This document shows positions 8,346 to 14,859 of a stretch of 64,000 bases of DNA, piece by piece. A program made the position numbers and the translations under genes. The stretch comes from Parazoarcus communis SWub3 = DSM 12120. GTDB taxonomy: Bacteria > Pseudomonadota > Gammaproteobacteria > Burkholderiales > Rhodocyclaceae. The notes under the pieces are model-generated. The model ran no database searches and was not told the origin of the DNA. It saw nothing but the letters and a program-made list of their open reading frames with translations. Numbering within the stretch: the stretch's first letter is position 1; every line of letters begins with the position of its first letter. The stretch lies in NCBI RefSeq assembly GCF_003226565.1, contig NZ_QKOE01000005.1, positions 172,846 through 236,845 of the forward strand, read 5' to 3'.

Positions 8346-8813
8346 ATGTTCGATATCGTCCTGTTCGAGCCCGAAATTCCACCTAATACCGGCAATATCA
8401 TTCGTCTGACTGCGAATACCGGAACGCGTCTGCATCTGGTCGAACCTCTGGGTTTTGATCTGAGTGACAAGCAGCTCGCACGTGCGGGGCTGGATTACCA
8501 TGACCTGGCGCATGTTGCGGTACACCGGGATTGGGCGGCCTGCCTGAATTTTTTTGCCGGGCGACGGATCTGGGCCTTGAGTACGCGCGGAACGGTGCGC
8601 CATGATCATGTGGATTACCGCGACGACGATGTGCTGCTCTTCGGGCCGGAAAGCCGGGGGCTGCCACAGACCGTGCTGGATCAGATTCCACCAGGGCAAC
8701 GTTTGCGAATTCCGATGCGGCCTGCCAATCGCAGCATCAATTTGTCGAATGCGGTTGCCGTTGTCGTGTACGAGGGTTGGCGACAGCGTGGGTTTGACGG
8801 CGCAGTGGGCTAG
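8346..8813 (+). CDS. trmL: tRNA (cytidine/uridine(34)-2'-O)-methyltransferase TrmL
   Basis: SPOUT-family enzyme that methylates the ribose of the wobble base in leucine tRNAs. The 155-residue protein has the family length and all three SPOUT motifs: PPNTGNIIRL at the N-terminus, LFGPESRGLP near residue 98, and the knot segment IPMRPANRSINLSNAVAV near residue 120. It follows comF by 40 bases on the same strand and is convergent with gpsA. Confidence 0.95.
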   Translation: MFDIVLFEPEIPPNTGNIIRLTANTGTRLHLVEPLGFDLSDKQLARAGLDYHDLAHVAVHRDWAACLNFFAGRRIWALSTRGTVRHDHVDYRDDDVLLFGPESRGLPQTVLDQIPPGQRLRIPMRPANRSINLSNAVAVVVYEGWRQRGFDGAVG

Positions 8814-8888: not shown

Positions 8889-9872
8889 TTACTCCATCCG
8901 GGGGTCGCGCGACAGGAGTTGCTCCACCACATCGCGGGCGTTCCGGCCGTCGTGCAAAAGCGCATTGACGGCTTCACAGATGGGCATCTCCACGCCGATG
9001 CGGCCGGCCAGGCCAACGACTTCACGCGCGGTCGAGACGCCCTCGGCGACGTGGCCGAGTTCGCGCAGGATGTCCTGCAGGGTCTTGCCTTGGGCCAGCG
9101 CAAGACCGACCCGGCGGTTGCGTGACAGATCACCGGTGCAGGTTAGGATCAGGTCGCCCATGCCAGATAGCCCCATCAGGGTTTCCGGGCGTCCGCCCAA
9201 GGCTTCGCCAAGTCGGGCGATCTCGGCCAGGCCGCGGGTGATGAGTGCGGCGCGGGCATTCAGCCCAAAACCCATGCCGTCGGACACGCCTGCGGCGATC
9301 GCCATGACGTTCTTGATGGCGCCGCCAATCTCGCAGCCCACCAGATCGGTATTGGCATAAAGCCGCAACCGGGGTTGATGCAGGTGCTGAACCCATTGTT
9401 GGGCAAAGGCGGCGTCGGCAGCCGCCAGCGAGATCGCAGCAGGCAGGCCTTGTGCCACCTCGGCAGCAAAACTGGGGCCGGTGAGTACGCCACAGGCCGC
9501 GTCGACGCCGAGTTCTTCCTGGATGATTTCATGCGGGAGGCGGCCTGAGCCGGCCTCGAGACCTTTGCAGGCCCAGATCAGCGGCGTGCCGGGCTGCAGC
9601 TGCTGAAGCGCACGCGCGGTGTCGCGCAGGCCGGACAGTGGCGTGACGACCAGGTGCAAGTCGGCGCCGATGGCTGCAGCGGCAAGATCGGCAGTAAATC
9701 TCAGCGAGGGAGACAGCGTGACGCCAGGCAGGTAGCGCTGGTTGCAACCGTCCCTTTGCAGATCCTCAACATGACTTGGGCTACGTGCCCATAGGGTCAC
9801 GTCATGGTGTTGGGTGTAGGCTTGGGCGAGCGCAGTGCCCCATGCCCCAGCGCCGAAAACGGATATCCGCAT
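8889..9872 (-). CDS. gpsA: NAD(P)-dependent glycerol-3-phosphate dehydrogenase
   Basis: Reduces dihydroxyacetone phosphate to sn-glycerol 3-phosphate for phospholipid synthesis (cytosol). The 327-residue protein shows the Rossmann loop GAGAWGTALA at residues 7-16, the GAIKNVMAIAAG segment with the catalytic lysine, and GLSGMGDLILTCTGDLSRN in the C-terminal domain. It is the last gene of a minus-strand operon, 5 bases after the SH3-domain gene and downstream of secB, the usual order in betaproteobacteria. Confidence 0.96.
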   Translation of the reverse strand: MRISVFGAGAWGTALAQAYTQHHDVTLWARSPSHVEDLQRDGCNQRYLPGVTLSPSLRFTADLAAAAIGADLHLVVTPLSGLRDTARALQQLQPGTPLIWACKGLEAGSGRLPHEIIQEELGVDAACGVLTGPSFAAEVAQGLPAAISLAAADAAFAQQWVQHLHQPRLRLYANTDLVGCEIGGAIKNVMAIAAGVSDGMGFGLNARAALITRGLAEIARLGEALGGRPETLMGLSGMGDLILTCTGDLSRNRRVGLALAQGKTLQDILRELGHVAEGVSTAREVVGLAGRIGVEMPICEAVNALLHDGRNARDVVEQLLSRDPRME

Positions 9873-9877
9873 CCCGC

Positions 9878-10324
9878 TTACAGGCCCCAGACGTCGCTGA
9901 CGCGCAGGAAGCCCTGCGTGCCATCGGCATGGCGGATCCGTACCCAGCCGTTTTCTGCGCTGCCGTTGAGTTGCAGTACTGCGTCACGTACCGTAGTGAA
10001 CACAGCTGGGGATGTATCCGAGGCTTGCTGGCGGACGGTGGCACTTGCTGAGGTGACCAGCACGGTGCGTTCGGTGCTGACCGCGCGCCGGTCTATCCAG
10101 CTCAGTGCGCCCGCCGGGTCACGCACCTTCAGCCATTTGTCGAGCTCGACCACGACCTCGACCGGGGTGCCGGTCAGGATGATGGACAGCTTCCTGCCCT
10201 TGTCCGACGGGGTGTCGTACAGGATGGAAGGCTCGGTGACCGAACGAAATTCGATCGCCGAGGCGACGCCGCTGACAAGGGTCAGCGCGAGTGCGGCAAT
10301 GAGGCCGAGTGTGCGTGATTTCAT
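9878..10324 (-). CDS. SH3-like domain protein, exported
   Basis: Function unknown; bacterial SH3 domains of this type often bind cell-wall peptides. The 148-residue protein has a signal peptide of about 23 residues (MKSRTLGL to GVASA) and two SH3-like repeats, about residues 27-80 and 83-147, each with a W-x-K/R-V/I-R motif (WLKVRDPAGALSWIDRR and WVRIRHADGTQGFLRVSD). It is probably periplasmic. It sits 15 bases downstream of secB and 5 bases upstream of gpsA, so it is co-transcribed with a secretion chaperone and a lipid enzyme. Confidence 0.85.
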   Translation of the reverse strand: MKSRTLGLIAALALTLVSGVASAIEFRSVTEPSILYDTPSDKGRKLSIILTGTPVEVVVELDKWLKVRDPAGALSWIDRRAVSTERTVLVTSASATVRQQASDTSPAVFTTVRDAVLQLNGSAENGWVRIRHADGTQGFLRVSDVWGL

Positions 10325-10339: not shown

Positions 10340-10795
10340 TTATTGAACCGGCACCTCGCCGCCGGGCGCCTGCTGCTGGCGTGCCTGGTAGAGGGCTTCG
10401 AAGTTGACCGGTGCCAGCAGCACAGGCTGGAAGCCGGCGCGGGTGATCGCGTCCGAGACGGCCTCGCGGGCATAGGGGAAGAGAATGTTCGGGCAACCGA
10501 TCATCATCACCGGCTCGAGATCACCCTCGGGGATGTTGCGGATCTGGAATACGCCAGCCTGGGCAACTTCGACGAGGAAGACGGCACGGTCTTCGCCCAG
10601 CTTGGCGGAAACGGTAACGGTCAGCGTGACTTCGAACAGGCCGTCGTCCACGCTCGCGCCGTCGGTGCGCAGTTGCACGTTGATCTGGGGATTTTCGCGC
10701 TCAAGGAAGATCTTGGGGGCGTTGGGGACTTCCAGCGAGAGGTCCTTGACGTAGATCTTTTCGATGGAGAAGACGGGTTGCGCGTTTTCGGTCAT
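10340..10795 (-). CDS. secB: Protein-export chaperone SecB
   Basis: Tetrameric cytosolic chaperone that keeps preproteins unfolded and passes them to SecA. The 151-residue protein has the family length and the conserved segments FSIEKIYVKDLSLEVPNAP, VTLTVTVSA, the AVFLVEVAQAGVF strand and the CPNILFPYARE segment. It lies between grxC and the SH3-domain gene on the same strand. Confidence 0.97.
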   Translation of the reverse strand: MTENAQPVFSIEKIYVKDLSLEVPNAPKIFLERENPQINVQLRTDGASVDDGLFEVTLTVTVSAKLGEDRAVFLVEVAQAGVFQIRNIPEGDLEPVMMIGCPNILFPYAREAVSDAITRAGFQPVLLAPVNFEALYQARQQQAPGGEVPVQ

Positions 10796-10828: not shown

Positions 10829-11098
10829 TCAGGCGGCAGGGCCGCCCAGCAGCGGGACAAGTTCCCCGCGTTGGTCGAGTGCGTACAGATCATCGCAGCC
10901 GCCGACATGGTAATCGCCGATGAAGATTTGCGGAACCGTACGGCGCCCGGTGATCTGCATCATTTCGTCTCTTTGCTCGGGATCGAGGTCGATGCGGATC
11001 TTGTCGATCTCGGTGACGCCGCGCGCGCGCAGCAACTGCTCGGCACGCGCGCAATAGGGGCAGAAGTTGCTGGTGTACATGCGGACGACGGGTTGCAT
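10829..11098 (-). CDS. grxC: Glutaredoxin 3
   Basis: Small thiol-disulfide oxidoreductase using glutathione. The 89-residue protein starts at MQPVVRMYT; the frame stays open further upstream, but that part overlaps the rhodanese gene and has no homology. The active site is CPYC at residues 13-16, and TVPQIFIGDYHVGG forms the glutathione-binding cis-Pro loop. It starts 2 bases after the stop of the rhodanese gene, so the two are probably translationally coupled. A glutaredoxin of this kind could serve the ArsC at 61.4 kb, although the genes are not linked. Confidence 0.96.
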   Translation of the reverse strand: MQPVVRMYTSNFCPYCARAEQLLRARGVTEIDKIRIDLDPEQRDEMMQITGRRTVPQIFIGDYHVGGCDDLYALDQRGELVPLLGGPAA

Positions 11099-11100
11099 GG

Positions 11101-11517
11101 TCACTTCCTCTTGCGGCTGATGGGCTGGCCGGCCTTTTCCCACTCGAACAGGCCGCCACGCAGGTTGTAGAGCTTTTCGAAGCCGGCTTTCTTCAGGGTG
11201 CCGATTGCAGAGGCAGAACGTGCGCCGCTGGCACAGCACAGGATGATGGGACGCTCCTTGAACTTCTCAAGTTCATTGCTGCGACGGGCGAGTTCCGATA
11301 GTGGGAGGTGGCGTGCGTTGGGGATGTGCCCCTGGCTGTACTCACCCTGGTCACGGACGTCCACGACCACCGCTTCTTCCCGGTTGATCAGTAATGTTGC
11401 CTCGATCGGGCTGAGCAGGCTCTTGTTGCCCTGATTACGGATGAAGTCGAACAGCAACCAGCCGCCAGAGACCGCGGCCAGGGCCGCCCAGATCAGATTG
11501 TCTTGCAGGAAATCCAC
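11101..11517 (-). CDS. Membrane-anchored rhodanese-like sulfurtransferase
   Basis: Predicted to carry sulfane sulfur as a persulfide. The 138-residue protein has one N-terminal membrane anchor (about residues 8-25) followed by a single rhodanese domain. The active-site loop is CCASGAR, with the catalytic Cys at residue 95 and an extra Cys at 94. VDVRDQGEYSQGHIPNA is the family's N-terminal signature. It is 20 bases downstream of a repressor with a persulfide-sensor cysteine pair and 2 bases upstream of grxC, which suggests that the group deals with sulfane sulfur or thiol stress. Confidence 0.92.
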   Translation of the reverse strand: MDFLQDNLIWAALAAVSGGWLLFDFIRNQGNKSLLSPIEATLLINREEAVVVDVRDQGEYSQGHIPNARHLPLSELARRSNELEKFKERPIILCCASGARSASAIGTLKKAGFEKLYNLRGGLFEWEKAGQPISRKRK

Positions 11518-11537
11518 GAAAAAGGTGCTCCGGAAGG

Positions 11538-11870
11538 TTAAGAGGTATGGGTCGGGGGAATGCCGCAGAAGACTTCCCGCATCAGGACGATCAACTGCAG
11601 GGTGCGTTGATCGCCCACCCGATAATAGACGCGGTTGGCGTCTTTCCGGGTCTGCAGGACGCCCTTGTCACGCAGGATCGCGAGATGCTGGGAGATATTG
11701 CTCTGTGATGTGCCGACCGCCTCGACGATATCCTGCACGCAGACTTCCTCGCTGCCAAGAACGCAGAGAATCTTGAGACGCAGGGGGTGGGCGATCGCTT
11801 TCAGCGCACGTGCTGCGGTTTCGATGTGCTCGTGCTTGTCGATCAGCTCGAAGATGTCTTGATTATTCAC
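11538..11870 (-). CDS. ArsR/SmtB-type repressor with a SqrR/BigR-like cysteine pair
   Basis: Winged-helix dimeric repressor, 110 residues from a GTG start (MNNQDIFELI). The frame is open upstream, but that part carries the promoter and has no homology. The recognition helix is TSQSNISQHLAILRDKG at about 54-70. Cysteines are at 36 (RLKILC), 44 and 102 (REVFC). The metal box of arsenic or cadmium sensors (two to three Cys in the third helix) is absent. The 36/102 pair has the same 66-residue spacing as the dithiol of SqrR and BigR, which sense sulfane sulfur by forming a polysulfide bridge. It heads the operon with the rhodanese gene. Sulfide sensing is an inference from these residues and the context. 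Confidence 0.85.
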   Translation of the reverse strand: MNNQDIFELIDKHEHIETAARALKAIAHPLRLKILCVLGSEEVCVQDIVEAVGTSQSNISQHLAILRDKGVLQTRKDANRVYYRVGDQRTLQLIVLMREVFCGIPPTHTS

Positions 11871-11896
11871 GTAAGGGCCGGTAGGGCAAAACCAAT

Positions 11897-11908
11897 AGTA
11901 TAAAATAC
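11897..11908 (-). promoter_or_regulatory. Promoter -10 and candidate operator of the thiol-sensor operon
   Basis: On the minus strand a good -10 box TATACT lies 27-32 bases before the GTG start. It overlaps a perfect inverted repeat GTAT-TTT-ATAC (11898-11908). A repressor bound there would cover the promoter, as expected for autoregulation. No convincing -35 box is visible. Confidence 0.45.
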
Positions 11909-12114: not shown

Positions 12115-13443
12115 ATGAGGGGAGTTCGACGCCTCGCTTTTGTGCTTGCAGGACTGGTCTGCCTCGGAGGTGCAGTTGGAGTGGCGCAGGTTCACGCGCA
12201 GGCCGCCAGTGGTGAGATTGATGAGCGCAAGGCGGATCTTGATGACCTCAAGCGGCGGATCCGCGATCTGCAGAAGGAGTTGTCGGAAACCGAGTCTACG
12301 CGTTCTGATGCGGCCACCGCGCTGGCCCAGGCAGAGCGAGAGGTGTCGCGGGTGGAACGTGAGCTTCGCAGGTTGCGCAATGAGCGTGCCGATGCTGCGC
12401 GCAAGCTTGCGTTGCTCGAGGCGGAGCAGCGTGAGGTGGAGGCGCGCATTGCCGCACGCCACGGCGAACTCGCAGAGTGGCTGCGCCGCTACTATCTGCA
12501 TGGGGGGACCGATGGGGTCGCCTCACTGCTGTCGGCGCGTGATCCGAATCAACTGGCTCGGGATGCGCACTATCTCGAGCATCTCGGACGTGCTCGCCTT
12601 GCGCTGATCGAGGGGCTGCGCAGTGATCTGCGCAGTAAAGCTGATCGAGCAGGCGAGATCGCCAGCCGCAGCGAGCGGTTGGCAGCGCTTGAGCAGTCGC
12701 AGCGGGCCCAGCAGGATGCGTTGAAGGCAACTCACGATCAGCGACGCCAGGCACTTGCCAAAATTGGCGAGCAACTGAAGGCTCAGCAGCGTGAGGTGTC
12801 AGCACTGCGTGCAGATGAGCAGCGCCTGGGCAGGCTGATCGAGACCTTGGCACGGCGGGCCCGGGAGCAGGCAGCGCGGCAGGCTGCTGCGCGTGCTGCA
12901 GCGGAGCGTCAGGCAGCGCAGGCTGCTCAGGCGCAGGCTCAGGGGCAGGTCCGAGCGCCGGCGCAAGGCGGTGCGGGCAGTCGGCGCTCGGAGCCCGTCG
13001 TTGGCGAAGTCAGACAGCTTGCCGGACCGACACCGACGGGCGTCAGCTTTGCGCAGATGCGTGGGCAGTTGCGATTTCCAGTACGCGGCGAACTCGTGGG
13101 ACGTTTCGGTGCTCAAAGAGCTGAAGGCGGCACCACCTGGAAAGGGGTGTTCATCCGCGCAGCCGGAGGGACCGAGGTGCGGGCGGTTGCGGCCGGCGAG
13201 GTGGTGTTCTCGGATTGGTTGCGCGGTTATGGCAATTTGCTGATCGTCGATCATGGTGGCGATTATCTGTCCATTTACGGCAATAACGATGCCTTGCTGC
13301 GCGAGGTGGGCGATGCGGTGCTGGGTGGCGACCCGATTGCCAGTGTCGGGGCAAGCGGAGGGGGCCCGGAATCGGGTTTATACTTCGAGATCCGCCACCA
13401 GGGGCGGGCGCTGGACCCGATGCAGTGGGTCAGGCTCAATTAA
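12115..13443 (+). CDS. envC: EnvC-like murein hydrolase activator
   Basis: Periplasmic coiled-coil protein expected to activate the amidases that split septal peptidoglycan. The start at 12115 (MRGVRRLAF) gives 442 residues with a signal peptide ending near VHAQA. Residues 30-250 are a long Glu/Arg/Leu-rich coiled coil, 255-325 an Ala/Gln-rich linker and 330-440 a LytM/M23 domain. The metal-binding positions of active M23 peptidases are replaced: the first His motif is GTTWKGVF and the HxH motif is YFEIRH. This matches the catalytically dead EnvC class. The protease gene follows by 54 bases on the same strand. Confidence 0.92.
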   Translation: MRGVRRLAFVLAGLVCLGGAVGVAQVHAQAASGEIDERKADLDDLKRRIRDLQKELSETESTRSDAATALAQAEREVSRVERELRRLRNERADAARKLALLEAEQREVEARIAARHGELAEWLRRYYLHGGTDGVASLLSARDPNQLARDAHYLEHLGRARLALIEGLRSDLRSKADRAGEIASRSERLAALEQSQRAQQDALKATHDQRRQALAKIGEQLKAQQREVSALRADEQRLGRLIETLARRAREQAARQAAARAAAERQAAQAAQAQAQGQVRAPAQGGAGSRRSEPVVGEVRQLAGPTPTGVSFAQMRGQLRFPVRGELVGRFGAQRAEGGTTWKGVFIRAAGGTEVRAVAAGEVVFSDWLRGYGNLLIVDHGGDYLSIYGNNDALLREVGDAVLGGDPIASVGASGGGPESGLYFEIRHQGRALDPMQWVRLN

Positions 13444-13497: not shown

Positions 13498-14859
13498 ATG
13501 GCCAGCAGCAAACTGAAACAGCTTGGGCTCGTGATGACCGGTGTCTTTGCCGGGGTCATGATCAGTCTGAATTTCTCTGCCAACGCGGACAAGGTGACGC
13601 CTGCGCCGCTGCCCGTCGAAGAGCTGCGTGCCTTTGCCGATGTCTTCAACGCCATCAAGCAGGGGTATGTCGAGCCGGTTGAGGACAAGAAGCTGGTCAC
13701 TCATGCGATCAGTGGGATGTTGAGCGGGCTTGATCCTCATTCCGCTTACCTGGATGCCGAGGCATTCAAGGACCTGCAGGTCGGGACTCAGGGTGAATTC
13801 GGTGGTCTGGGAATCGAGGTTGGCATGGAGGACGGTTTCGTCAAGGTGGTGTCGCCCATCGAGGATACGCCGGCCTTTCGTGCCGGGGTCATGGCCGGCG
13901 ACCTGATCGTCAAGCTCGATGACACCCCGGTCAAGGGCATGAACCTGAACGACGCGGTCAAGCGCATGCGTGGCAAGCCCAAGACCGACATCACGCTGAC
14001 CATCATGCGCAAGGGGGAGGCGCGTCCCATTGTGCTCACCCTGACGCGTGAGGTCATCAAGGTTCAGAGCGTCAAGTCCAAGGTGGTCGAACCTGGCTAC
14101 GGCTACCTGCGTGTAGCCCAGTTCCAGGAGAACACCGCCAGTTCGGTGGTGCAGCATCTTGGCAAGCTTGCCAAGGAAGGCCCCTTGCAGGGGCTGGTGC
14201 TTGATCTGCGCAATGATCCGGGTGGCCTGTTGCACGGTGCGGTAGGGGTATCGGCGGCTTTCCTGCCAGCGAACACGGTGGTGGTGTCCACTGACGGTCG
14301 GGCCGAGGATGCCAAGCGTGAGTATCGGGCTGTACCGGAGGATTACCTGCGTGGATCCCGTGACGATTTCCTGAAGGGTCTGCCGGAGTGGGCGCGTGAG
14401 GTACCGATGGTGGTGCTGGTGAATGCAGGTTCTGCGTCAGCATCCGAGATTGTTGCGGGGGCCTTGCAAGACCATAAGCGGGCGGTCGTGATGGGGACTC
14501 AGACCTTTGGCAAAGGGTCGGTGCAGACCATCCTGCCGCTGAACAATACGACTGCCATCAAGCTGACGACTGCGCGGTACTATACGCCCAGCGGACGCTC
14601 GATTCAGGCCAAGGGGATTGAGCCTGACATCGTCGTTGAGGAGTCGGCGAACGGATCAGCCCGCCGTGTCCGAGAGGCTGATCTTCAGGGGCATCTGGGT
14701 AATGACAAGGACCCGGAGGCCGAGAGTAAGGCAAAGGCTGCAGGGGGTGAAGATGATGAGCCGTCGCCCCGTTTCGAACTGGCAGGAAAGGACGACTACC
14801 AACTGGGTCAGGCGCTCAACCTTCTCAAGGGGCTGCAGATCGTCCAGAATAAAAAATAA
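13498..14859 (+). CDS. C-terminal processing peptidase (S41 family)
   Basis: Exported serine protease of the Ctp/Prc family, which trims periplasmic and cell-wall-associated proteins. The chosen ATG has GGAG five bases upstream; a GTG at 13492 is the alternative. The 453-residue protein has an N-terminal signal or anchor (about 8-30), a PDZ domain (about 95-175) and the S41 core with the nucleophile segment GSASASEIVAGAL and the catalytic Lys in FGKGSVQ (about residue 339). The acidic C-terminal tail (about 395-435) is poorly conserved. It is in one transcription unit with envC, and in related systems such pairs control cell-wall hydrolases. Confidence 0.93.
   Translation: MASSKLKQLGLVMTGVFAGVMISLNFSANADKVTPAPLPVEELRAFADVFNAIKQGYVEPVEDKKLVTHAISGMLSGLDPHSAYLDAEAFKDLQVGTQGEFGGLGIEVGMEDGFVKVVSPIEDTPAFRAGVMAGDLIVKLDDTPVKGMNLNDAVKRMRGKPKTDITLTIMRKGEARPIVLTLTREVIKVQSVKSKVVEPGYGYLRVAQFQENTASSVVQHLGKLAKEGPLQGLVLDLRNDPGGLLHGAVGVSAAFLPANTVVVSTDGRAEDAKREYRAVPEDYLRGSRDDFLKGLPEWAREVPMVVLVNAGSASASEIVAGALQDHKRAVVMGTQTFGKGSVQTILPLNNTTAIKLTTARYYTPSGRSIQAKGIEPDIVVEESANGSARRVREADLQGHLGNDKDPEAESKAKAAGGEDDEPSPRFELAGKDDYQLGQALNLLKGLQIVQNKK

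Follow-up and report, generated by a model that had tools for sequence, protein, structure and literature searches.

A conserved ArsR-family repressor with a BigR/SqrR-like cysteine pair at the secB locus: a candidate sulfane-sulfur sensor

SqrR from Rhodobacter capsulatus and BigR from Xylella and Agrobacterium are regulators of the ArsR fold whose targets include SQR, a dioxygenase or sulfur transporters. According to the accounts available, the relatives of this type bind DNA as reduced proteins and are released from it when two cysteines become joined by a polysulfide bridge (PMC9774250, PMC10509353). Reported target genes of such sensors concern sulfide oxidation, biofilm, antibiotics or toxins, and a rhodanese gene has been described as a neighbor of known persulfide sensors (PMC10509353). 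In Escherichia coli the gene next to ygaV is the rhodanese gene ygaP, which belongs to the same operon (PMC9774250), and HlyU from Vibrio, an activator of hemolysin transcription, is described as having a persulfide-reactive cysteine pair (PMC10509353). Here we present a putative repressor with the same type of cysteine pair whose gene heads an operon containing secB. The literature searched, which lay mostly outside the subscription journals, yielded no paper on this repressor and no experiment on it or on any member of its clade.

The window, that is the whole stretch of 64 kb of DNA that was analysed, contains the repressor gene on the minus strand (11538–11870). It begins with a GTG start codon and codes for an ArsR-family protein of 110 amino acids with cysteines at positions 36, 44, and 102. 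The segment 11101–11908, to which the original prediction referred, contains yibN, the repressor gene, and its promoter. The gene is the first of a tight run of six genes on this strand, arsR-yibN-grxC-secB-SH3-gpsA, which according to their coordinates are separated by gaps of 20, 2, 33, 15, and 5 bases. As had been predicted originally, the next gene codes for a rhodanese (YibN-like, 11101–11517, Pfam E-value 5.5e-22) and is followed by grxC for glutaredoxin 3 (10829–11098, above the NCBIfam cut-off), whose ATG at 11098 is located two bases past the yibN stop codon. Then follow, also on the minus strand, secB for the protein-export chaperone (10340–10795), a gene with an SH3 domain (9878–10324), and gpsA for glycerol-3-phosphate dehydrogenase (8889–9872). 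The YibN-like rhodanese has an N-terminal hydrophobic stretch which reads as a putative membrane anchor, and its Cys95 heads the CASGARS loop. An extra Cys94 precedes it in the window, so that the predicted tandem cysteine is present, but it is not a general feature: in the 141 loci where the loop can be read, Cys95, with which the CxxGxRS loop begins, is found in all 141 and Cys94 in 53. On the other side of the repressor gene, the conserved neighborhood comprises two divergent genes on the plus strand, coding for an EnvC-like murein hydrolase activator (12115–13443) and a CtpA-like C-terminal processing peptidase (13498–14859).

The membership of the repressor in the ArsR family is clear from PF01022 (50.2 bits, cut-off 22) and NF033788 (92 bits, cut-off 55). 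The BigR equivalog model NF040642 is matched at E ≤ 0.001 by all 27 members of our alignment; for the window repressor, whose score is known, the match reaches 75.2 bits and stays below the cut-off of 155. In a single-sequence search the best solved relatives were BigR, YgaV, NolR, HlyU, and SqrR. The 27-row profile gave HlyU (81 bits), YgaV (80), BigR (80), NolR (71), and SqrR (69), with lower matches to Rv0081 (56), PagR (53), and SmtB (49). When the AlphaFold2 model of the repressor (mean pLDDT 88) was submitted to Foldseek, chains of HlyU, NolR, BigR, and SqrR came out on top and YgaV appeared only at rank 23, just under two metal sensors at ranks 20–22. By sequence, predicted fold and placement of its cysteines, the repressor has its closest kin in the dithiol ArsR sensors HlyU, YgaV, BigR, and SqrR, with NolR in their midst, and HlyU is the best-scoring solved relative by profile as well as by fold. 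The group of dithiol sensors of reactive sulfur species described as cluster 4 is characterized by a cysteine pair in alpha2 and alpha5 and by a rhodanese or sulfurtransferase or a sulfur transporter encoded nearby (PMC10509353). Our repressor has such a pair and a rhodanese gene directly downstream, and the members of cluster 4 are its nearest relatives by profile score, yet it falls into a separate clade on long branches. In a tree of 38 rows the 27 repressor proteins form a clade of their own (support 90/97), whereas BigR, SqrR, YgaV, HlyU, and NolR are united in one separate group (93/90). Due to the long branches the deeper order of this tree is unsure, and carrying the ligand over from the BigR/SqrR group is a guess. 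Moreover NolR, which lies inside this group, has an aspartate at the position of Cys36, its position 102 being beyond the aligned stretch. Kinship alone can therefore not prove a dithiol sensor.

We followed the locus in three sets of genomes: the named loci, which are the best 80 of 576 confirmed matches, a sample of the order, which we take to be the Burkholderiales of GTDB, and a sample of up to three genomes per family from the class, presumably its Gammaproteobacteria. Of the 300 order genomes (our own included), 119 have a relative of the repressor at E ≤ 1e-20, and the repressor was found in 139 of the 274 genomes sampled from the class. Its presence at this locus thus extends well outside the genus. 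Among the named loci, as the best 80 of 576, yibN and grxC are the next markers in 70, the full order yibN-grxC-secB-SH3-gpsA is kept in 66, and 71 have envC, ctpA or gpmI opposite the repressor; of those without yibN and grxC, the remaining 10 have pump genes next (eight loci) or no marker (L070, where the stretch ends, and L083). Taken together, the order and the named set comprise 150 loci, of which 84 have yibN as next marker, 42 a pump gene, and one grxC. For the other 23 there is no marker gene within the stretch examined, which in some cases is short (3.3 kb in L109, L110, and L112). In the class, 42 of 51 loci have yibN after the repressor, and the opposite flank is mostly taken by gpmI or envC; the SH3-domain gene, which belongs to the operon in both the named and the order loci, was not detected in the class loci. 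At the pump loci yibN-grxC-secB usually comes after the pump where the stretch is long enough. A TolC/adaptor/RND efflux pump is placed between the repressor and yibN, where the latter is reached, in L069, L071 (where yibN is also present), L073, L074, and L082; further pump loci are L117, L120, L121, L124–L128, L136, L139, L143, L147, and L148. The RND pump may be a further target of the repressor. Ten loci carry the repressor and no yibN operon in the stretch examined (L114, L118, L119, L123, L130, L131, L133, L138, L151, and L152), and in eight of these gpmI, envC or ctpA still lies beside the repressor.

The comparison with E. coli is instructive concerning the history of the locus. There, trmL, cysE, gpsA, secB, grxC, and yibN are found together with a divergent gpmM-envC block, and the yibN-grxC-secB-gpsA operon is also stated, together with a contact of YibN with YidC, in PMC12282094. 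Thus, genes, gene order and the divergent block are shared with the window. In contrast to the window, the E. coli stretch has no repressor gene between yibN and gpmM, lacks the SH3-domain gene and continues with cysE after gpsA; the window, for its part, has no gpmM between the repressor and the divergent envC. E. coli has trmL at the far end of the locus, and an open reading frame at 8346–8813 of the window looks TrmL-like. As E. coli has the block but no repressor in it, and many genomes of the class have both, we regard the locus as the old home of the repressor. The original prediction that a sulfur regulon had captured secB and gpsA must hence be given up. Judged from synteny, the repressor most likely has resided here since before the beta- and gammaproteobacteria parted, or has moved as part of the block; E. 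coli is without it.

Of the cysteines in the protein, only the two on which a sensor function would depend are generally conserved. Cys36 and Cys102 are 66 residues apart, the spacing which had been pointed out for BigR and SqrR. This spacing holds up, as the repressor aligns without a gap to the reactive pair of BigR and gives an equal-length match to SqrR, which itself aligns gapless to BigR with matched cysteines. The cysteines of YgaV and HlyU are likewise aligned with Cys36 and Cys102; the YgaV pair (C31/C98) is, however, 67 residues apart and belongs to a different operon, and HlyU has different targets. In the structural model alpha2 (H29–38) contains Cys36, alpha5 (H88–102) ends with Cys102, and Cys44 comes just ahead of alpha3. 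The 201 loci with a relative gave 170 distinct proteins over residues 17–102. Cys102 is present in all 170 and Cys36 in 163 of them, which is beyond chance, and apart from Cys44 no other column contains more than eight cysteines, so that there is no third general cysteine. Cys36 is lost in seven of the 150 order and named loci (L122, L131, L133, L137, L138, L140, and L149), where it is replaced by Ser, Tyr or Ala; the L137 protein, for example, has Ser36, Ser44, and Cys102. Six of the seven have no marker gene after the repressor in the stretch examined and L122 has grxC as next marker, whereas Cys36 is intact at all 126 loci whose next marker is yibN or belongs to a pump, a count uncorrected for relatedness. 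Loss of the targets may be followed by decay of the sensor, although this pattern is suggestive only because several loci come from the same families or even from the same genome.

The extra Cys44 of the original prediction is indeed encoded, and it is a lineage-specific cysteine: it occurs in 63 of the 170 distinct relatives, the other 107 having mostly Ser at this position. Within the order and named loci, 75 of the 84 in which yibN is the next marker have Cys44, and the other 66 all lack it. Its carriers are mainly of the Rhodocyclales type (68 of the 80 named loci, the best 80 of 576), and the named loci without it include those of Hydrogenophilus, Tepidiphilus, Thiobacillus, Sulfurimicrobium, Sulfuricella, and Gallionellaceae. 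We considered whether Cys44 goes with the arrangement in which yibN is next. This is ruled out by the class, as none of its 45 distinct proteins has Cys44 despite yibN being next in 42 of 51 loci. The association of Cys44 with yibN is thus one of descent.

Upstream of the repressor gene a conserved element, TATTTTATACTA, was found on the minus strand at 11896–11907. It holds a −10-like TATACT (11897–11902) and is a candidate operator. The element is present in 14 of 14 named relatives from Azoarcus, Thauera, Aromatoleum, and Pseudothauera (the named set being the best 80 of 576) and occurs exactly once in the genome of 5.0 Mb. The element forms part of a wider motif over the −10 box, TATTNTATAMT, which is found exactly in 75 of 189 non-identical upstream regions as compared to 0.3 in shuffles. 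In the 114 regions where the exact motif is missing, TATTTTA (38 vs. 9.0 expected) and TATTCTA (21 vs. 3.8) are enriched. Since the element includes the −10 box, conservation of promoter and operator cannot be separated, and part of the conservation is that of a promoter. The inverted repeat GTAT-TTT-ATAC, which had been proposed to cover the −10 box, does exist at 11898–11908. As an operator it is rejected because it is not conserved and is of a common kind: its first G is kept in six of the same 14 relatives, and perfect 4-bp arms around a 3-nt loop occur 314 times in the window, although GTAT-N3-ATAC itself occurs exactly once. The palindrome TTAGAATATTCTAA is present in only two of the 189 upstream regions. 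The SqrR box ATTC-N8-GAAT has no exact match upstream of the repressor genes and is not enriched with up to one mismatch (20 of 189 vs. 17.7 in shuffles), which is a further difference from SqrR. Genome wide, TATTYTATAMTA and TATTYTANNNTATT have one exact match each, both at the operon itself, and with up to one mismatch there are 5 and 16 sites, compared to 4 and 16 for the reversed patterns. The 5.0 Mb yielded no further exact target site. As the element occurs exactly once, the repressor is most likely a local autoregulator. A sigma-70 scan gave no −35/−10 pair at the element. Its one match nearby, on the minus strand at 11889–11862, overlaps the start codon, and we do not believe it. The start codon lies 25 bases from the conserved element (11870–11896 in the window) and no clear Shine–Dalgarno sequence precedes it, so the leader of the repressor mRNA is probably very short.

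We suggest the following mechanism. The reduced dimer would occupy the AT-rich element that covers the −10 box, thereby blocking the promoter of its own operon. When sulfane sulfur (persulfide, polysulfide) rises, Cys36 in alpha2 and Cys102 in alpha5 of one protomer would become bridged by sulfur. The bridged repressor would then leave the DNA, and more YibN as membrane sulfurtransferase, glutaredoxin 3, and SecB would be made. The features which can be read from the sequence mostly fit the mechanism of the known dithiol sensors. Like SqrR and BigR, the repressor has the ArsR fold, the alpha2/alpha5 cysteines 66 residues apart and a rhodanese or sulfur genes nearby. It differs from both in forming a separate clade, in its low score with the BigR model (75 vs. 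155 bits) and in its presumed targets yibN-grxC-secB-gpsA. In particular, glutaredoxin, SecB, and GpsA are not classic genes of sulfide detoxification, which speaks against the mechanism. On balance we consider it somewhat probable that this conserved dithiol protein represses its own operon and is relieved by sulfane sulfur through a Cys36-Cys102 bridge.

The strongest rival is a general thiol-redox repressor, which would be switched by a direct Cys36-Cys102 disulfide (peroxide, disulfide stress, electrophiles) rather than by sulfane sulfur, the operon being a response to oxidative damage of exported proteins. GrxC and SecB would be no less fitting for redox or protein stress than for sulfide detoxification, SqrR has been solved in a disulfide as well as in a tetrasulfide state according to the structure titles, and the BigR of Xylella is reported to form a disulfide on sulfide (PMC9774250). 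On the other hand HlyU, the top solved relative by profile, is described as unreactive with H2O2 or glutathione disulfide (PMC10509353). Peroxide sensors of the RexT type have two proximal cysteines in alpha3; here Cys44 stands alone near alpha3, nearly all rows have at most one cysteine in this region, and residue 51 is Cys in only 3 of 170 proteins. We assign a minor though appreciable probability to this explanation. The probability is smaller that the protein is a house-keeping autoregulator with structural cysteines, which responds to another local signal, for example heme, or to none, and chiefly sets the level of the operon. The strong conservation of the repressor (60–94% identity to the window protein over 26 named, order and class relatives) would agree with such a role, and YgaV and SqrR are stated to bind heme, SqrR by the cysteine which matches Cys31 of YgaV (PMC9774250). 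The cysteine pair and its spacing, however, are those of the known sulfur-bridge sensors, and losses of Cys36 are confined to loci without yibN or a pump gene as next marker.

That the protein is an ArsR/SmtB-type sensor for a metal or metalloid, Cys44 being one of the ligands, is suggested by the NCBIfam name 'metalloregulator ArsR/SmtB family' (92 vs. 55 bits), by the RND pump next to the repressor in many relatives and by the alignment of Cys44 with Cys61 of SmtB, the offset being 17 at both ends of the match. Yet the protein has neither the CxC of alpha3 nor the Asp/His/His/Glu set of alpha5 which are found in SmtB, CzrA, and ArsR. Position 46 is occupied by Gln in 163 of 170 relatives, and Cys44 is itself missing in 107. 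The alpha5 ligand positions of SmtB correspond, as we assume, to residues 87, 89, 100, and 103 of the repressor. Only Asp87 is kept (166 of 170), whereas residue 89 is Arg in 161 of 170, residue 100 is Val in 158 of 170 and residue 103 is mostly Gly. In addition the pump permease of L071, the one which was scanned, is nearer to multidrug RND proteins than to the CusA/CzcA models, while remaining below all cut-offs. With no CxC and one of four alpha5 ligands, metal sensing appears unlikely from the sequence, and we give this possibility a very low probability. The best reading is a putative sensor of the sulfane-sulfur type. In kind it is what had been predicted, given the nearest relatives by sequence, fold and cysteine placement, the rhodanese gene next to it and the missing metal ligands; it is the proposed history that has changed.

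What distinguishes this case from the described sensors is the operon. YibN has recently been tied to the insertase YidC (PMC12282094), and here the same type of switch heads an operon which codes for SecB and the YidC-linked YibN. The conservation of the locus and, nearly always, of both cysteines suggests an as yet undescribed link of sulfur or redox stress with protein export. If the response to sulfane sulfur is true, protein export joins the sulfur-stress response, and the rhodanese domain of YibN, so far unexplained, would receive a purpose. We tentatively go one step further, regarding the following as possible rather than probable: that a core regulator inherited from the ancestor of the beta- and gammaproteobacteria sets the levels of SecB, YibN, and glutaredoxin 3 by a sulfane-sulfur or thiol-redox switch, an undescribed means, absent from E. 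coli, of adjusting membrane protein export and insertion to sulfur stress. As the E. coli locus has no repressor gene, work with this organism would have missed such a control. The finding is larger than a single odd operon, as it concerns a conserved regulator of the secB locus which is absent from the literature searched.

As the genome contains soxC, sulfur oxidation is within its repertoire. Another contig of the same genome (C111) carries a second gene of the ArsR family (L002:1390–1746), whose product has four cysteines. It lies beside this soxC gene for sulfite dehydrogenase (606 bits, cut-off 420) and also adjoins a small open reading frame with a cytochrome c-like CxxCH motif. The second ArsR protein is closer to Rv0081 and SmtB than to BigR.
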